Shown here: in pieces, positions 20,919 to 29,550 of the stretch
Position numbering within the stretch: the first letter of the stretch is position 1
How the letters are laid out: each line of letters begins with the position of its first letter
DNA from: Chloroflexota bacterium
GTDB taxonomy: Bacteria > Chloroflexota > Dehalococcoidia > UBA2979
DNA: 33,809 nucleotides
NCBI GenBank assembly: GCA_009840945.1
Contig: VXMU01000136.1
Span: 1-33,809, forward strand
Direction: 5' to 3'
The notes under the pieces: generated by a model
What the model was told of the DNA's origin: nothing
The model's input: only the letters and a program-made list of their open reading frames with translations
The model's database searches: none
Position numbers and translations under genes: made by a program

Positions 20919-22061
20919 TTACGCGGTAGTGGCCGCACCCGCCCGCGCGGGCGGCCGCACACGTCGCCGCGTGATGCCTCGGTCGATGATCAGGTAGAGC
21001 GCGATCAGGCCCACGACGTTCGATGCCAGCAGCACCACGTCGGGCCAGTCGTAGACCAGGATCAGGCCGTTCACGAGGATGAGCGCGAACGACATCGGCA
21101 GCAGCACCTTCCACGAGAAGCCCATGAGCTGGTCGATGCGCATACGCGGCATCGTGACCCGCACCCAGAAGACCGAGAAGATGAGGAGCAGCGCCTTGCC
21201 GGCCGTCAGCAGCAGCTGCCACACCGGCCCGACCTCCTCGCCGAGCGGCCACGCCCAGCCGCCGAGGAACACCGCGGCGCCCACCAGCGAGAGGATGAAC
21301 AGCCCGGCGTACTCGGCCAGGAAGAACATCGACCAGCGGATCCCGCTGTACTCGACGAACGGCCCGCCGACCACCTCGGACTCACCGACCGGGATGTCGA
21401 AGGGGGTGCGGTTCAGCTCGGCCAGCATCGCGACGTAGAAGATCGCGAACGCCAGCGGCTGCCAGACGATGTACGGGATGTGCCCCTGCTCGGCCACGAT
21501 CACGCCGAGGTCCAGCGAGCCGCGGCCGGCGTCGGTGCTCACCACCATCGAGACGGCGATGAGCGAGAGGATGAGGGGCAGCTCGTAGGAGATGCCCTGC
21601 GCGGCGGCGCGCAGCGCGCCCAGCATCGCGTAGCGGTTGTCGGACGCCCACCCGGCCATGACCCAGCCGACGATGTTGATCGAGCTGATGGCCACGACGT
21701 AGAAGAGCCCGAGCTCGAGCACCCGCACGTTCCAGTCGAACGCGAACGGCACGGCCACGAAGGCCATGAACACCGGGACGAAGACGAAGTAGACGGCCAG
21801 CTCGAAGACCCACGGGTCCGCGCCGCGCGGCCGCAGGTCCTCCTTGCCGACCAGCTTCAGCGCGTCGGCGAGCGACTGCAGGATGCCGAACGGGCCGGTG
21901 CGCATCGGGCCGAGGCGGCGCTGGAAGCGTCCGATGATCTTCCGCTCGCCGTAGATCAGCCCCATCACCACCACCGTCATGAGGATGACGATCAGCTGGA
22001 GCCGGATGACGGCGTCCACCCAGATGTTGACGTTCTCGATGCCGAAGAGGCCGACGTTCAT
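20919..22061 (-). CDS. nuoH: Complex I subunit H
   Basis: Eight-helix membrane subunit of 380 residues forming the quinone chamber and linking the peripheral and membrane arms. Diagnostic stretches are GERKIIGRFQRRLGPMRTGP, LADALKLVGKEDLRP, ELNRTPFDIPVGESEVVGGP and EYSGIRWSMFFLAEY. The ATG overlaps the nuoD stop by 4 bp (ATGA). Confidence 0.97.
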   Translation of the reverse strand: MNVGLFGIENVNIWVDAVIRLQLIVILMTVVVMGLIYGERKIIGRFQRRLGPMRTGPFGILQSLADALKLVGKEDLRPRGADPWVFELAVYFVFVPVFMAFVAVPFAFDWNVRVLELGLFYVVAISSINIVGWVMAGWASDNRYAMLGALRAAAQGISYELPLILSLIAVSMVVSTDAGRGSLDLGVIVAEQGHIPYIVWQPLAFAIFYVAMLAELNRTPFDIPVGESEVVGGPFVEYSGIRWSMFFLAEYAGLFILSLVGAAVFLGGWAWPLGEEVGPVWQLLLTAGKALLLIFSVFWVRVTMPRMRIDQLMGFSWKVLLPMSFALILVNGLILVYDWPDVVLLASNVVGLIALYLIIDRGITRRRVRPPARAGAATTA

Positions 22062-23191
22062 CGATCAACCTCGCAGAGCACGATGTCGAGCGAGCCGAGG
22101 ATCACGACCGCGTCGGCGACGTAGCCGCCGATCGTCATGTCGCGCAGCGCCTGCAGGTTGGAGAGGCACGCCGAGCGGATCTTGAGGCGGTGCGGGCGGT
22201 TGCCGCCCTTGCTCACCAGGTAGATCCCGTACTCGCCGCGCGGGGCCTCGGTGCGCGTGTACACCTCGCCGGCCGGGGTGCGCAGCATGCGCGGCAGCCG
22301 GTCCGGGACGATCGGCCCGGGCTCGAGCCGCTCGAGGCACTGCTCGATGATCTTGATGGACTCGCTGGCCTCGCGGATGCGGCCGTAGAAGCGGTCGAAG
22401 ACGTCGCCGTGGTCGCCGGTGATGACGTCGAAGTCGACCTGGTCGTAGAAGAGGTACGGCTCGTCGCGGCGGATGTCCATCGGCACACCGGAGGCGCGCA
22501 GCGTGGGGCCGCTCGTGCCCCAGTCGATGGCGTCCTCGGCGGTGATGACGCCGACGCCCTCGGTGCGGGCGCGGAAGATCTCGTTCTGGGTCATCAGCCC
22601 GTCGAGCTCCCGGAGACCCTCGCGCGAATCCTTGAGCACCTCGCGCACGCGGGTCTCGAAGTTGTCCGGGACCTCCCAGGCGAGGCCGCCGGCGCGGAAG
22701 TACGCGAACATCAGGCGGTCGCCCGTGATCTCCTCGAAGAGGTCCTGGATGACCTCGCGGTTCCGGAAGCCGTAGACGAAGGCCGTGCCGAAGACGCCCA
22801 CGTCGGTGCCGAACGCGCCCAGGAACATGAAGTGGCTGGAGAGCCGGTTGAGCTCGCACAGGATCATGCGGATCCACGTCGCGCGCTCCGGCACCTCAAG
22901 CTCGGCGAGGCGCTCGACGGCCATGACGTAGGAGAGCTCGGCGTTGAAGTTCGCCAGGTACTCCGTGCGGTCCATGTAGCCGATGCCCTGGCGGTAGTCC
23001 ATGGTCTCGCAGAGCTTCTCGGCCCCGCGGTGCATGTAGCCGACGTACGGTGTGACGTCGGTGATCAGCTCGCCGTCGATGGTGAGGACCATGCGGAAGA
23101 CGCCGTGCGTCGAGGGGTGCTGTGGCCCCATGTTGACGAAGATGTCTTCAGTCTCGAACTCGTTCTCGAGCACGGGGGGAGGCTGGGTCAT
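22058..23191 (-). CDS. nuoD: Complex I subunit D (49-kDa-type)
   Basis: Quinone-site subunit of 377 residues, related to the large subunit of [NiFe] hydrogenases but without its Ni-binding cysteines. The N-terminal MGPQHPSTHGVFR carries the quinone-interacting His loop. YVGYMHRGAEKL, CELNRLSSHFMFLG, TEAPRGEYGIYLVS and the C-terminal DIVLCEVDR are all family signatures. It is a separate gene, not a nuoCD fusion. It overlaps nuoC and nuoH by 4 bp on each side. Confidence 0.97.
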   Translation of the reverse strand: MTQPPPVLENEFETEDIFVNMGPQHPSTHGVFRMVLTIDGELITDVTPYVGYMHRGAEKLCETMDYRQGIGYMDRTEYLANFNAELSYVMAVERLAELEVPERATWIRMILCELNRLSSHFMFLGAFGTDVGVFGTAFVYGFRNREVIQDLFEEITGDRLMFAYFRAGGLAWEVPDNFETRVREVLKDSREGLRELDGLMTQNEIFRARTEGVGVITAEDAIDWGTSGPTLRASGVPMDIRRDEPYLFYDQVDFDVITGDHGDVFDRFYGRIREASESIKIIEQCLERLEPGPIVPDRLPRMLRTPAGEVYTRTEAPRGEYGIYLVSKGGNRPHRLKIRSACLSNLQALRDMTIGGYVADAVVILGSLDIVLCEVDR

Positions 23192-23727
23192 TCGAACGCC
23201 TCCTCAGCGTAGGCGATGCCTTCGCCCTGCAGCACCTCGATCTCCGCGAGGGGGTGATCCTTGCGCAGCGGGAACGTGTCGTCCATGTCCTCGGGGAGCA
23301 GCAGCGGCCGCGGGTCCGGGTGACCCTCGAAGCGCACGCCGAACATCTCCGCCGTCTCGCGCTCCAGCCAGCCGGCCGCGCGCCACACCGTGGTCGCGGT
23401 GTCGAGCGTGAGGTCGTCGTTGTCGAGGTGGCACTTCACGGTCAGGTTGTGGCGGTGCTCGGTGGAGTAGAGGTGATAGACGACGTCGATCCCCTCCTCC
23501 TCCCAGTCGATAGCGGTCAGGTTGCGCAGGTAGTCGAACGAGAGCCCCTCGCTGGACTTGAGCACGCGTAGCCCGCGCGTGAGCTCGCCCTTCGGGATGA
23601 AGACGATGAGGTCCTGCGCGCCGCGCTCGGGGTCGGCGGTGATGCCGGCGAGGGCGGCGTCGACGGCGCCCCAGATGGTGTCGTCGAGCGAGTCGGCAGC
23701 GGAGCCGTTGGGCTCGTCGGTCGTCAT
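23188..23727 (-). CDS. nuoC: Complex I subunit C (30-kDa-type)
   Basis: Peripheral-arm subunit of 179 residues. It has the [10 protein letters not shown] segment and the signature [19 protein letters not shown], followed by RPLLLPEDM and the PLRKDHPL end, as in the family. The ATG overlaps the nuoB stop by 4 bp (ATGA). An N-terminal acidic stretch of about 20 residues is variable. It is unfused to nuoD. Confidence 0.95.
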
Positions 23728-24362
23728 CGACCGGTCGCCCCGCGTTCCTCCATGATCTTCTCCTGGAGGGCGACGAAGCCATCGAGGAGCGCCTCCGGCC
23801 GCGGCGGGCAGCCGGGCACGTAGACGTCGACGGGAACGATCTTGTCGACGCCCTGGAGGACACGGTCGTAGCGGGTGTAGGGGCCACCGTTGGTGGCGCA
23901 GGCGCCCATCGAGATCACCCACTTGGGGTTCGGCATCTGCTCGTAGAGCAGCTTCACGGCGGGGGCCATCTTCTTGGTCACGGTGCCCGCGACGATCATC
24001 ACGTCGGACTGCCGCGGCGACGGCCACGGCACGATCCCGAAGCGGTCGAGGTCGTAGTGGGCCATGTACGTCGCGATCATCTCGATCGCGCAGCACGCCA
24101 GGCCGAAGGTCATCGGCCACAGCGAGGACTTGCGCGACGCGGCGAGCACGAGGTCGGCCGGCACCTGCATCACGCCCGGGAGCACGACGCGGTAGAGCGC
24201 CTTGCCCGGTACGGGCTCGATGGGGACGAGGCGGGGGGCCTCGGCCGGGTGCTCGGTCGGCGGTATCTCCGGTACGAGCGGAGTTGGTACCAGGGGCGGT
24301 GCGGTCTCGGGAGCATCGGGCGGAGCCGTGGTCCCGGTCACGTCAGGAGGTCTCAGCGCCAC
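23724..24362 (-). CDS. nuoB: Complex I subunit B (cluster N2) with a Pro-rich N-terminal extension
   Basis: Carries cluster N2, the last electron donor to quinone. In the 212 residues the ligands are the tandem Cys90-Cys91 (GLACCAIEM), Cys155 ([10 protein letters not shown]) and Cys185 (VPGCPPRPE). The core starts near residue 65. The first 60 residues are rich in Pro, Ala and Thr and have no counterpart in standard NuoB. The chosen GTG (24362) has AAGGGAG upstream and overlaps the end of nuoA by 10 bp. A later GTG at 24341 lacks a ribosome site. Confidence 0.93.
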
Positions 24363-26009: not shown

Positions 26010-28721
26010 TTAGCTGATCTCCGCCAGTGACTCCTCGAGGCCGCGCAGGCGGCCGCCTGCGGTGGCGAGGCGCTCCTCTTCCTTGGCCACCACCTCGGCG
26101 GGGGCGCGGGTGCGGAACTGCTCGTTCGCGAGCTTGCGCTCCAGGCGCTGCACCTCGTTCGCCGCGTCGTCGATCTGCTTCTGCAGCCGCGTGCGCTCGG
26201 CGTCGAGGTCGAACAGCCCGGCCATCGGCAGCACGACGCGGCCGACCGGCAGCACCGACGTGACCACCCCGTCCGAGGGCGCCTCCTCGGGGGTGTCGAC
26301 GACGTGCAGCGGCCGTACGCGGGCGAGCTGGCCCAGCGCCTCGGCGGTGCCGCGCGCGGCCTCGGCAGCCTCGGCGCCGACGATGTAGGCCTCAACCCAG
26401 CGCCCGGCGTCGACCCGACGCTCGGCGCGCACGTTGCGGATCGCGCGCACAAAGTCCTGCACCGCGGCCAGCTCGCGCTCCGCCTCGTCGTCGAAGCGGC
26501 TATCGTCGGCGATCGGGTAGCGGGCGACGATGAGCTGCGAGGGGTCATCGGCGGCGTTCGCGCGGAGCGGCGTCATGCGCTGCCACAGCTCCTCGGTGAC
26601 GAACGGCATGAACGGGTGCAGCAGCCGCATGACCGAGTCGAGCGCGTGCAGCATCACCGGCAGCGGCGTCGTGTCGCCCGCGCGCACGCGCACCTTCGCG
26701 AGCTCGAGGTACCAGTCGGCGAGCTCGTCCCAGAAGAAGTCGCGCGTCTGGCGCAGCGCCTCGGCCAGCTCGAACTTGCGCAGCAGCTCGTCGGCGAGCG
26801 CGACGGTGCGCTCGAGGCGCGAGAGGATCCAGCGGTCCTCGCGCAGCAGCTGGGGATCGCCGACCGCCGGCAGCGCGAGGTCGTCGCGGCCGAGCTGCTC
26901 CTGCTCGATCAGCGTGAGGACGAGGCGGCTGGCGTTCCACAGCTTGTTGGCGAAGTTGCGGCCCGCCTCCAGGCGGTCGTCCGTGATGCGCTGGTCGTTG
27001 CCGGGCGAGGTGCCGGAGATGAGCGCGTAGCGCAGGGCGTCGGTGCCGTACTGCCCGATCATGTCGAGCGGGTCGACGACGTTGCCGAGCGTCTTCGACA
27101 TCTTGCGGCCGTCCGGGGCGCGCACCAGGCCGTGCAGGTAGACAGTCTCGAACGGGATCGCGTCGTCACCGAGCTCGCGCATGTTGTAGAGCGAGAGCAT
27201 CACCATGCGCGCGACCCAGAAGAAGATGATGTCGTAGCCGGTCTCCATGACCTGCGTCGGGTAGAAGCGCCCGAGGTCGTCGGCGTCGTCGTCGGGCCAG
27301 CCGAGCGTCGAGTGCGGCCACAGCCCCGACGAGAACCACGTGTCGAGCGTGTCCTCGTCCTGCCGGACCGGGCCGTCGCACTTCGAGCAGCCGTCGGGGT
27401 CCTCGACGGCCACGATGGTCTCGGGGCAGGCGTCGCAGTACCACACGGGGATGCGGTGGCCCCACCAGATCTGGCGGCTGATCGTCCAGTCGCGGATGTT
27501 CTCCATCCAGTGGAAGTAGGTCCGCTCGAACCGCCTCGGCACGAACTCGATGCGCCCGTCGCGCACCGCGTCGATGGCGGGCCTGGCGAGCGGCTCGGCC
27601 CGCACGAACCACTGCTCGGAGATGATCGGCTCGACGATCGTGCCGGAGCGCTGGCAGTGGCCGACCGAGTGGGTGTACTCCTCGGTGCGCTCCAGCAGCC
27701 CCGCCGCGTCGAGGTCCTCGACCACGCGGTCGCGCGCCTCGAAGCGCTCCATGCCGGCGTACTTGCCGGCGTCCTCGGTCAGCCGCCCGTCGGCGCCGAC
27801 GATGTTGAGCACGGGCAGGCCGTGGCGCTGCCCGATTTCGAAGTCGACGGGGTCGTGGCCGGGCGTGACCTTCAGCGCGCCGGACCCCGCCTCGATACTC
27901 ACCGCCTCGTCGGGGATGACCGGCACCGGCCGGTCCGAGGTCGGCACGAGCACGTTGCGGCCGAGGAGGTGCTGGTAACGCTCGTCCTCGGGGTTCACGG
28001 CGACGCCGGTGTCGGCCGGGATCGTCTCCGGCCGCGTGGTGGCGATGACCAGGTACTCGCCGGTCTGCTCGTTGTCGTCGTCCAGCACCGGGTAGCGGAA
28101 GTGCCAGAACGCGCCGGGTTCGTCGTCGTGCTCGACCTCGAGGTCGGAGAGCGCGGTGCCGCAGTCGACGCACCAGTTGATGATGCGCTCGCCGCGGTAG
28201 ATGAGGCCGTCCTCGTAGAGGTTCACGAACGTCTGGCGCACGGCGCGCTGCCGCGCCTCGTCCATCGTGAACGCCTCGCGCTCCCAGTTGGCCGAGGCCC
28301 CCAGGCGGCGGTGCTGCTCGGCGATGCGCGAGCGCGAGCGCCCGACGAAGTCCCACACGCGGTCGAGGAACGCCTCGCGGCCGATGTCGTGCCGCGAGAT
28401 GCCCTCGGCGGCCAGCTCGCGCTCGACGAGCGCGTTGACGGCGATGGCGGCGTGGTCGACGCCGGGCAACCACAGCGTGTCGTCGCCGAGCATGCGGTGC
28501 CAGCGCACCAGCGCGTCCTCGACGGCGACGGTGAGCGCGTGGCCGATGTGCAGCTCACCGGTGAGGTTGGGCGGCGGCATGATCACGGTGAACGGCCGCT
28601 CGCCGCCCTGCGGGCGGAAGGCGCCGGCCTGCTCCCACGCGTCGTAGACGCGCTCCTCCACCTGCGAGGGGTCGTAGGCGGTCGCCATCTCCTGCGCGGG
28701 CGGCGCGGGTTCGGTCGTCAC
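26010..28721 (-). CDS. valS: Valyl-tRNA synthetase
   Basis: Class I synthetase charging tRNA-Val, 903 residues. PPPNLTGELHIGHAL contains the HIGH motif (58-61). The CP1 editing domain follows. DTWFSSGLWP and the KMSKT motif (K540 to T544, KMSKS type) close the active site. The anticodon-binding helical domain (about 640-800) and a C-terminal coiled coil (about 840-903, tRNA-binding arm) are present. GTG start with GAGGAG 8 bp upstream; a later ATG near 28688 is less likely. Expression is probably set by the attenuator leader at 28774-28921. Confidence 0.97.
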   Translation of the reverse strand: MTTEPAPPAQEMATAYDPSQVEERVYDAWEQAGAFRPQGGERPFTVIMPPPNLTGELHIGHALTVAVEDALVRWHRMLGDDTLWLPGVDHAAIAVNALVERELAAEGISRHDIGREAFLDRVWDFVGRSRSRIAEQHRRLGASANWEREAFTMDEARQRAVRQTFVNLYEDGLIYRGERIINWCVDCGTALSDLEVEHDDEPGAFWHFRYPVLDDDNEQTGEYLVIATTRPETIPADTGVAVNPEDERYQHLLGRNVLVPTSDRPVPVIPDEAVSIEAGSGALKVTPGHDPVDFEIGQRHGLPVLNIVGADGRLTEDAGKYAGMERFEARDRVVEDLDAAGLLERTEEYTHSVGHCQRSGTIVEPIISEQWFVRAEPLARPAIDAVRDGRIEFVPRRFERTYFHWMENIRDWTISRQIWWGHRIPVWYCDACPETIVAVEDPDGCSKCDGPVRQDEDTLDTWFSSGLWPHSTLGWPDDDADDLGRFYPTQVMETGYDIIFFWVARMVMLSLYNMRELGDDAIPFETVYLHGLVRAPDGRKMSKTLGNVVDPLDMIGQYGTDALRYALISGTSPGNDQRITDDRLEAGRNFANKLWNASRLVLTLIEQEQLGRDDLALPAVGDPQLLREDRWILSRLERTVALADELLRKFELAEALRQTRDFFWDELADWYLELAKVRVRAGDTTPLPVMLHALDSVMRLLHPFMPFVTEELWQRMTPLRANAADDPSQLIVARYPIADDSRFDDEAERELAAVQDFVRAIRNVRAERRVDAGRWVEAYIVGAEAAEAARGTAEALGQLARVRPLHVVDTPEEAPSDGVVTSVLPVGRVVLPMAGLFDLDAERTRLQKQIDDAANEVQRLERKLANEQFRTRAPAEVVAKEEERLATAGGRLRGLEESLAEIS

Positions 28722-28773: not shown

Positions 28774-28801
28774 CAAAGCGACGCCCCGCGGGAGCGGGGC
28801 G
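28774..28801 (-). terminator. Attenuator terminator in the valS leader
   Basis: CGCCCCGC, loop TCCC, GCGGGGCG forms a perfect 8-bp stem on the minus strand, followed by TCGCTTTG. The tail is almost identical to that of the glnA terminator. It lies between the leader-peptide stop and the valS start, with its 3' end about 50 bp from the GTG. The upstream segment GAGGGC can pair with the left arm (GCCC...CTC), offering an antiterminator. Confidence 0.65.
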
Positions 28802-28838
28802 CAGGCGACCGGCGCGGCCCTCGATGCGTGGGGCCGGG

Positions 28839-28886
28839 CTAGCCGCCGCCGGCTACTACTACGTCGCGGTGTGCACGCTGGTGCAT
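28839..28886 (-). CDS. valS leader peptide (15 residues, Val-Val-Val)
   Basis: ATG at 28886, then MHQRAHRDVVVAGGG and TAG at 28839. The three Val codons are all GTA (28854-28862), which should be rare in a genome this GC-rich. There is no ribosome site, but the promoter predicts transcription starting at the A of the ATG, so the peptide would be leaderless. It sits upstream of valS with a terminator between. Ribosome stalling at the GTA run for lack of Val-tRNA would cover the GCCGGCGGC segment that otherwise pairs with GCCGCGCCGG, releasing the antiterminator. Confidence 0.7.
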   Translation of the reverse strand: MHQRAHRDVVVAGGG

Positions 28887-28892
28887 GGATGG

Positions 28893-28921
28893 ATGGTAGG
28901 CAGGGGGTGTGGAGGGGTCAA
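28893..28921 (-). promoter_or_regulatory. Promoter of the valS leader
   Basis: On the minus strand, -35 TTGACC (28916-28921, 5/6 match), a 17-bp spacer, and -10 TACCAT (28893-28898, 4/6 match). The first base of the leader ATG is the 7th base after the -10, the standard start distance. Confidence 0.7.
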
Positions 28922-28942: not shown

Positions 28943-29422
28943 TCAGCCTCCCGCCCGCCGCCGCACCTCATCCACCACCCGCTCCACATACCTCGCGCGC
29001 GTCGACGCGGTACGGGCGCGCTCGACGAAGGCGAGCATGCCGGTGCGCTGCGCCTCGGTGAGGGCGGCGAACGCCTCGACGCCGCCGTCGAGGCCTGACA
29101 GCGCCTCGCGCAGGTCGTCGGGAAGCGGCGGTTCGGGCGGGCCCGCGGCGCGGACGACCTCGATCGCCACCTCGTCGCCGACGCCGATGCCAGCCGCCGC
29201 GCGCACGGAGCCGTCGAGGAAGACGCGGTAGGCGCCGCCGCCACGTGGGGTGAGGCGTGTCGTGAACGGGTGGCCGTTCGCGGCGCCCTCGACGCGGACG
29301 TACCGCTCCGGCGGGTCGCCGGCGAGCGCGCGGCTCGCGGCGGCGGGCACGTCGACGCAGTAGTTCATGGCGAGCGTGCGGAGCGTGGCGGTGAAGCGCA
29401 CAGGTGTCGGCGAGGGCGTCAT
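28943..29422 (-). CDS. DUF1905 / YdeI-type (bacteriocin-protection-like) protein
   Basis: The 159 residues have an N-terminal DUF1905-like beta domain (about 5-95): RFTATLRTLAMNYCVDVPAA, HPFTTRLTPRGGGAYRVFLDG and GVGDEVAIEV. A C-terminal helical YdeI/OmdA domain follows (about 105-155), with LREALSGL and FAALTEAQRTGMLAFVERARTA. Proteins of this type are small and cytosolic; the molecular role is unknown despite the family name. ATG 29422 was chosen because homology starts just after it. It is divergent from the VOC gene. Confidence 0.8.
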   Translation of the reverse strand: MTPSPTPVRFTATLRTLAMNYCVDVPAAASRALAGDPPERYVRVEGAANGHPFTTRLTPRGGGAYRVFLDGSVRAAAGIGVGDEVAIEVVRAAGPPEPPLPDDLREALSGLDGGVEAFAALTEAQRTGMLAFVERARTASTRARYVERVVDEVRRRAGG

Positions 29423-29550
29423 GCGCCGATGGTAGCGCCCGGCCGGGCATCCCCTATCCGGTGCGTCGAGGCTGCGCGGCTCGCCATAACCGCCTACAGT
29501 CATGCGAGGCGTGCGGAGCGCGTCGACCACGCGATCGAAAGGCGGACGGC

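Follow-up and report, generated by a model that had tools for sequence, protein, structure and literature searches.

In the window (i.e., the whole 33,809-nt stretch of Chloroflexota DNA analyzed here), valS, coding for valine--tRNA ligase and the regulated gene of the locus, occupies positions 26010..28721 of the minus strand and was identified by the profiles NF004349 (1101.6 bits) and TIGR00422 (1009.3 bits). The closest named matches to its product are from the Chloroflexi MAG SB0666_bin_12 (97% identical) and then from a Dehalococcoidia MAG (73%). Genes for the 49 kDa and 30 kDa subunits of NADH dehydrogenase (complex I) lie downstream of valS on the same strand (22058-24120, minus strand). 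The leader region of valS sits between valS and a DUF1905/OmdA gene (28943-29530).

All leader elements are on the minus strand, where the original prediction had placed the promoter, the ATG, the peptide, the GTA run and the hairpin correctly. The -35 element, TTGACC (28916..28921), is separated by a 17-nt spacer from the -10 element, TACCAT (28893..28898), which ends 6 nt upstream of the ATG at 28886. From there runs the leaderless leader ORF MHQRAHRDVVVAGGG (28839..28886, stop included), which has 15 codons, among them the regulatory codons GTA GTA GTA (28854..28862), and ends with the stop codon TAG at 28841-28839. Its last codons and stop are held in the 5' arm of a rod hairpin, in which stem P1 encloses stem P2 (28801..28849). 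The terminator hairpin P3 (GCCCCGC-TCCC-GCGGGGC, 28783..28800) and the U-tract GUCGCUUUG (28774..28782) follow. Most relatives have TTGACC or a near variant with a spacing of 17-18, and their start codons are found 6-10 nt past the -10 element. The spacing from promoter to start is conserved at the valS leaders of relatives, as judged from sequence only, and we infer that valS transcription begins at, or about one base from, the A of the leader ATG. The valS leader of the window matches neither the T-box family RF00230 nor any other Rfam family.

Val-codon leaders in one Dehalococcoidia family

Relatives were sampled from one Dehalococcoidia family (44 genomes, 17 genera). The valS leader architecture was found in 13 of the 17 genera, and a covariance model of the leader matched 30 of the 44 genomes, again in 13 genera. 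Because G004, G018 and G060 were left out of model building, their matches are independent. A leaderless ORF with a Val run 6-10 nt past a TACCAT-like -10 element is present in 26 leaders from 11 genera, with further leaders in L124, L318 and L320. The layout recurs in GC-rich family members and is missing, by both upstream regions and covariance model, in the AT-rich genera g5, g7 and g9. The valS leader of g17 (L030) is reduced, having two Val codons only and diverged rod and terminator arms, and is perhaps a decaying or intermediate form. In the sample of other Dehalococcoidia families, the region before valS showed no Val leader. Outside the family the covariance model gave weak matches only; those inspected (L322, L323 and L324) were not leader-like, and neither was a weak second match in G010 (L327).

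The leader ORFs of relatives range from 7 to 21 residues and vary in both sequence and length, with the Val run staying close to the end. This run, whose conservation the original prediction had named as a check, is retained before valS in 13 genera out of 17, and the proposed leaderless Val-codon peptide before the cognate valS recurs with GTA codons across the family. In 26 predicted leader ORFs, every one of them upstream of valS, 103 of the 369 residues are Val, and 94 of these 103 Val codons are GTA. In the window's genome, GTA accounts for 219 of the 10,522 Val codons (2.1%) counted over 300 ORFs, and none of these ORFs carries an in-frame GTA-GTA-GTA run. The regulatory codons are therefore rare genome-wide, as the original prediction had thought likely, and dominant in the leaders. 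The stop codon precedes the rod arm in some genera and lies inside the arm in others, thus suggesting that the RNA, not the peptide, is conserved. A scan of 1.66 Mb (about two thirds) of the window's genome for leaderless short ORFs with a terminator turned up a strong -35 element in no more than two hits, the valS leader and a His-rich ORF. The valS leader arrangement goes well beyond chance.

RF00230 was positive in L044, L074 and L088. T-boxes were located upstream of valS in the Chloroflexota relatives L044 (1588-1928) and L088 (813-1055), both above the gathering score, and also at L130:209-468 and L041:1396-1665, both below the Rfam gathering cut-off with E 3e-15 or better; one of the latter two belongs to a Dehalococcoidia genome of another family. 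Since T-boxes precede valS in other Chloroflexota, leader-peptide sensing occupies their place in this family and stands in for them. The view that a leader peptide instead of a T-box is unusual for valS is in line with this distribution, and also with the literature searched (closed journals being outside the search), in which we found no earlier report of a valS leader peptide.

Rod, terminator and sister leaders

The order of elements is the same in each valS leader, i.e., Val codons, then the rod, then P3. The rod is found in all relatives, and the first helix of the original prediction (its 1:2 pairing) is conserved among them. In per-leader folding over 12 genera, the rods are more stable than dinucleotide shuffles (mean z -3.2). 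P2 stem sequences vary from genus to genus with pairing maintained, and little change is seen in the P1 core (GCGGC/GCCGC) or in the P3 arms (CCCCGC/GCGGGG, near-invariant in 27 leaders). RNAalifold on a MAFFT alignment returned the invariant P1 core and P3 only, with zero covariation, because P2 is not alignable; the per-leader comparison with shuffles took the place of alignment folding for valS, and counts of base pairs in the rods did so for ilvB. Taken alone, the whole valS leader of the window folds no better than shuffled sequence (z -0.17).

Between the leader ORF and valS, nearly all leaders conserve a hairpin with a U-rich tail. The tail has 6-7 U of 9 in most relatives, and is poor in the window's own genome (GTCGCTTTG). 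Of the terminator predicted before valS, the hairpin thus holds up through its conservation in relatives, but the U-tract of the window's copy is weak. The invariant P3 arms were also considered as a generic terminator of the genome, and this was rejected, as no GCCCCGC..GCGGGGC-TTT was found in 543 kb.

The geometry of the leaders is constrained. In all 28 valS leaders, the rod begins 12-16 nt past the first base of the first Val codon, a distance that corresponds to the edge of a ribosome stalled there and supports an attenuator. When the first Val codon occupies the A site, the ribosome ends barely short of the rod and leaves it free; when the ribosome has reached the stop codon, it sits on the 5' arm. 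Rod and P3 are 0-3 nt apart in 23 of the 28 leaders and 4-7 nt apart in the other 5. P1 and P3 share no bases, so that rod and terminator are separate in sequence.

Two sister leaders occur in the same genome. On its contig C35, a leaderless His-rich leader peptide and a classical attenuator precede hisZ-hisG-hisD (L176:4691-4875, plus strand; relatives L263-L289), with hisG and hisD named from reading frames and hisZ by profile. The peptide, MRTSEVHGSHVHMHRVHRNPSRSCAHR, has six CAT codons, and its 'PSR' codons make the antiterminator arm CCGTCGCG. This leader is retained in most GC-rich family members, with up to nine His codons. The other sister is a leaderless Leu/Val leader peptide upstream of ilvB (L340 on contig C110; relatives L329-L358), whose layout is that of valS and which the valS covariance model also matched in genus g11. 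It was present in 30 of 30 ilvB loci found by protein search, including those of the window's own genome and of the AT-rich g7, where the valS leader is missing. The ilvB peptides end in runs of Leu and Val codons, and their stop codon TAG is joined to P1 (TAGGCGRCG in most). Compensatory changes occur in P1, which is paired in 188 of 189 cells, compared with 28-38% when slid. The second hairpin has a conserved CGUGU loop, and P3 is often without a U-tract. None of the his and ilvB leaders tested matches an Rfam family. Near ilvB of the relative G005 there is also a c-di-AMP riboswitch (RF00379, 66.5 bits, L334:4014-4137, minus strand).

A complete attenuator with a classical antiterminator had been proposed for valS. 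However, its 2:3 pairing (GAGGGC with GCCC..CTC), tested across the leaders, is missing in most relatives, and in most valS leaders no ribosome position lets an antiterminator beat the terminator. This was judged by the free-energy cost of forbidding P3 at each ribosome position, with the hisZGD leader of the same family as positive control. The his medians showed textbook behavior, -6.1 kcal/mol with the ribosome stalled mid-run and +6.4 kcal/mol at the stop. For valS, the medians were +10.5 kcal/mol with no ribosome, +12.9 at the first Val, +7.5 at the last Val and +5.6 at the stop, and for ilvB +5.3, +11.1, +9.4 and +3.3 kcal/mol, respectively. The terminator is therefore favored throughout in both, with a trend opposite to the classical one. 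An antiterminator that takes terminator bases and wins on stalling was found by this test in most his leaders but not in the valS leaders.

Proposed mechanism, alternatives and known systems

A ribosome-sensing attenuator is well supported by the conserved leader set, the rare GTA codons and the sister leaders of hisZGD and ilvB, and we consider it likely that the valS leader acts in cis as a ribosome-mediated attenuator of valS. The leaderless ORF, its rare cognate codons, the rod, the terminator, their spacing and their conservation are all apparent from comparing the leaders. Sensing of charged tRNA-Val through ribosome position is well supported by these features and by the analogy with known attenuators. 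Stalling on the GTA codons, and the direction of control, are what such an arrangement implies; on the logic of the system and the example of the his leader, stalling should raise valS. In the model, a ribosome would start on the leaderless valS mRNA and, when charged tRNA-Val(UAC) is plentiful, pass the GTA codons to the stop, where it would cover the 5' arm and keep the rod open, so that P3 could terminate transcription before valS. When charged tRNA-Val is short, the ribosome would stall on GTA with its leading edge ending at the start of the rod, the rod would fold, and RNA polymerase would read through into valS.

How the rod prevents termination is the least certain step of the model. 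From sign and geometry, we tentatively suggest a steric block, in which the folded rod would obstruct the terminator hairpin inside RNA polymerase. The base of a terminator stem would lie deep in the RNA exit channel, where both strands would have to meet and the RNA upstream would have to thread out single-stranded. A folded rod 0-3 nt from P3 could not thread out, and we propose that the terminator could therefore not close as long as the rod stays folded; by unfolding it, a ribosome at the stop codon would allow termination. Slightly more speculative still is the idea that the valS and ilvB leaders form a class of attenuators without strand exchange, with a folded rod abutting the terminator and blocking its closure within RNA polymerase. 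The wider gaps of 4-7 nt in five leaders count against a steric block, as does the proposal that adjacent or clustered hairpins promote termination (PMC8355165). Against the attenuator model in general, equilibrium folding is in favor of P3 in almost every state and above all at the first-Val stall, the window's terminator has a poor U-tract and its leader a z of only -0.17, and P3 of ilvB often lacks a U-tract.

Several other explanations were weighed. Classical strand exchange with a kinetic or weak antiterminator is a possible but doubtful one, in which the arms of P1 and P3 would pair crosswise through their invariant GCGG/CCGC cores, the two 5' arms with each other or the two 3' arms with each other. 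The near invariance of the P1 core and P3 arms, when P2 is free to vary, suggests that each has more than one partner; moreover, in many leaders nothing upstream pairs better with the P3 5' arm than the P1 5' arm does (down to -14.8 kcal/mol), and with the ribosome at the stop the pairing of P1 3' with P3 3' competes in a few. But in GCGGCAG leaders these pairs are weak, L030 has lost them, and in ilvB leaders they span, by inspection, only about 3-4 bp; moreover, P3 stays ahead by 6-13 kcal/mol (median) at every ribosome position. Crosswise pairing thus explains the invariance of the arms but not the energies. The energies would instead fit control of opposite sign, in which the P1 3' arm, released by a ribosome sitting on the P1 5' arm, would weaken P3, with the result that translation of the leader raises valS and stalling or no translation lowers it: in both valS and ilvB, P3 is least favored with the ribosome at the stop and most favored at the first-Val stall. 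We regard this as unlikely, since such control would be odd physiology, both for a synthetase and for a biosynthetic gene, and since the classical sign is seen in the family's his leaders. To our knowledge, attenuators of cognate genes all derepress on starvation.

Equally improbable in our assessment is that P3 is not the switch point and that the valS leader works via Rho, or via RNA stability or translation. The ilvB leaders, with the same rod and often without a U-tract, and the mycobacterial Cys leader peptides without an evident terminator (PMC1262725) would be compatible with it, but nearly all valS leaders retain the hairpin and U-rich tail. That the ORF arose by chance in GC-rich intergenic sequence and regulates nothing would agree with the lack of unusual folding in the window by itself. 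This reading is extremely improbable and, as far as the comparison reaches, refuted, because ORF, GTA codons, rod and spacing are conserved over 13 genera despite diverged peptides and stems.

Under the attenuator model, leaderless leader peptides (valS, ilvB and hisZGD) are probably the means by which these uncultured Chloroflexota, as a whole family, sense amino-acid supply. Parts of such a system are known elsewhere. In E. coli, the synthetase gene pheST is under attenuation, with a leader peptide in which its own amino acid is abundant. Leader peptides have also been predicted for leuS and trpS in Actinobacteria/Streptomyces (PMC1262725). As in the valS leader, these three combine a synthetase with a leader peptide for its own amino acid, but they are described with classical antiterminator and terminator hairpins, and none is for valS. 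A T-box (RF00230) before valS controls the same gene by the same signal, the charging of tRNA-Val; whereas the T-box RNA reads the tRNA itself, in the valS leader of this family without a T-box the tRNA would be read by a ribosome on GTA codons. The leaderless Cys ORFs of mycobacteria (cited in PMC13236596; also PMC1262725) resemble the valS leader in being short with a cognate codon run near the stop, but concern another amino acid and phylum and have no recognised terminator hairpin.

The ilvBNC leader of C. glutamicum, MTIIRLVVVTARRLP, has its transcription start one base from the ATG, and a Val-to-Ala change in it abolishes valine control (PMC11857589). Like the predicted valS leader, it is leaderless and has 15 residues, a Val-Val-Val run and a terminator hairpin downstream; unlike it, it controls biosynthesis, has an antiterminator overlapping the terminator and belongs to another phylum (PMC11857589). 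The two peptides have no likeness beyond the Val run. Since the valS and ilvB leaders are without the overlapping antiterminator of the textbooks, they make it possible to ask cleanly whether an RNA switch can prevent termination with no strand exchange.
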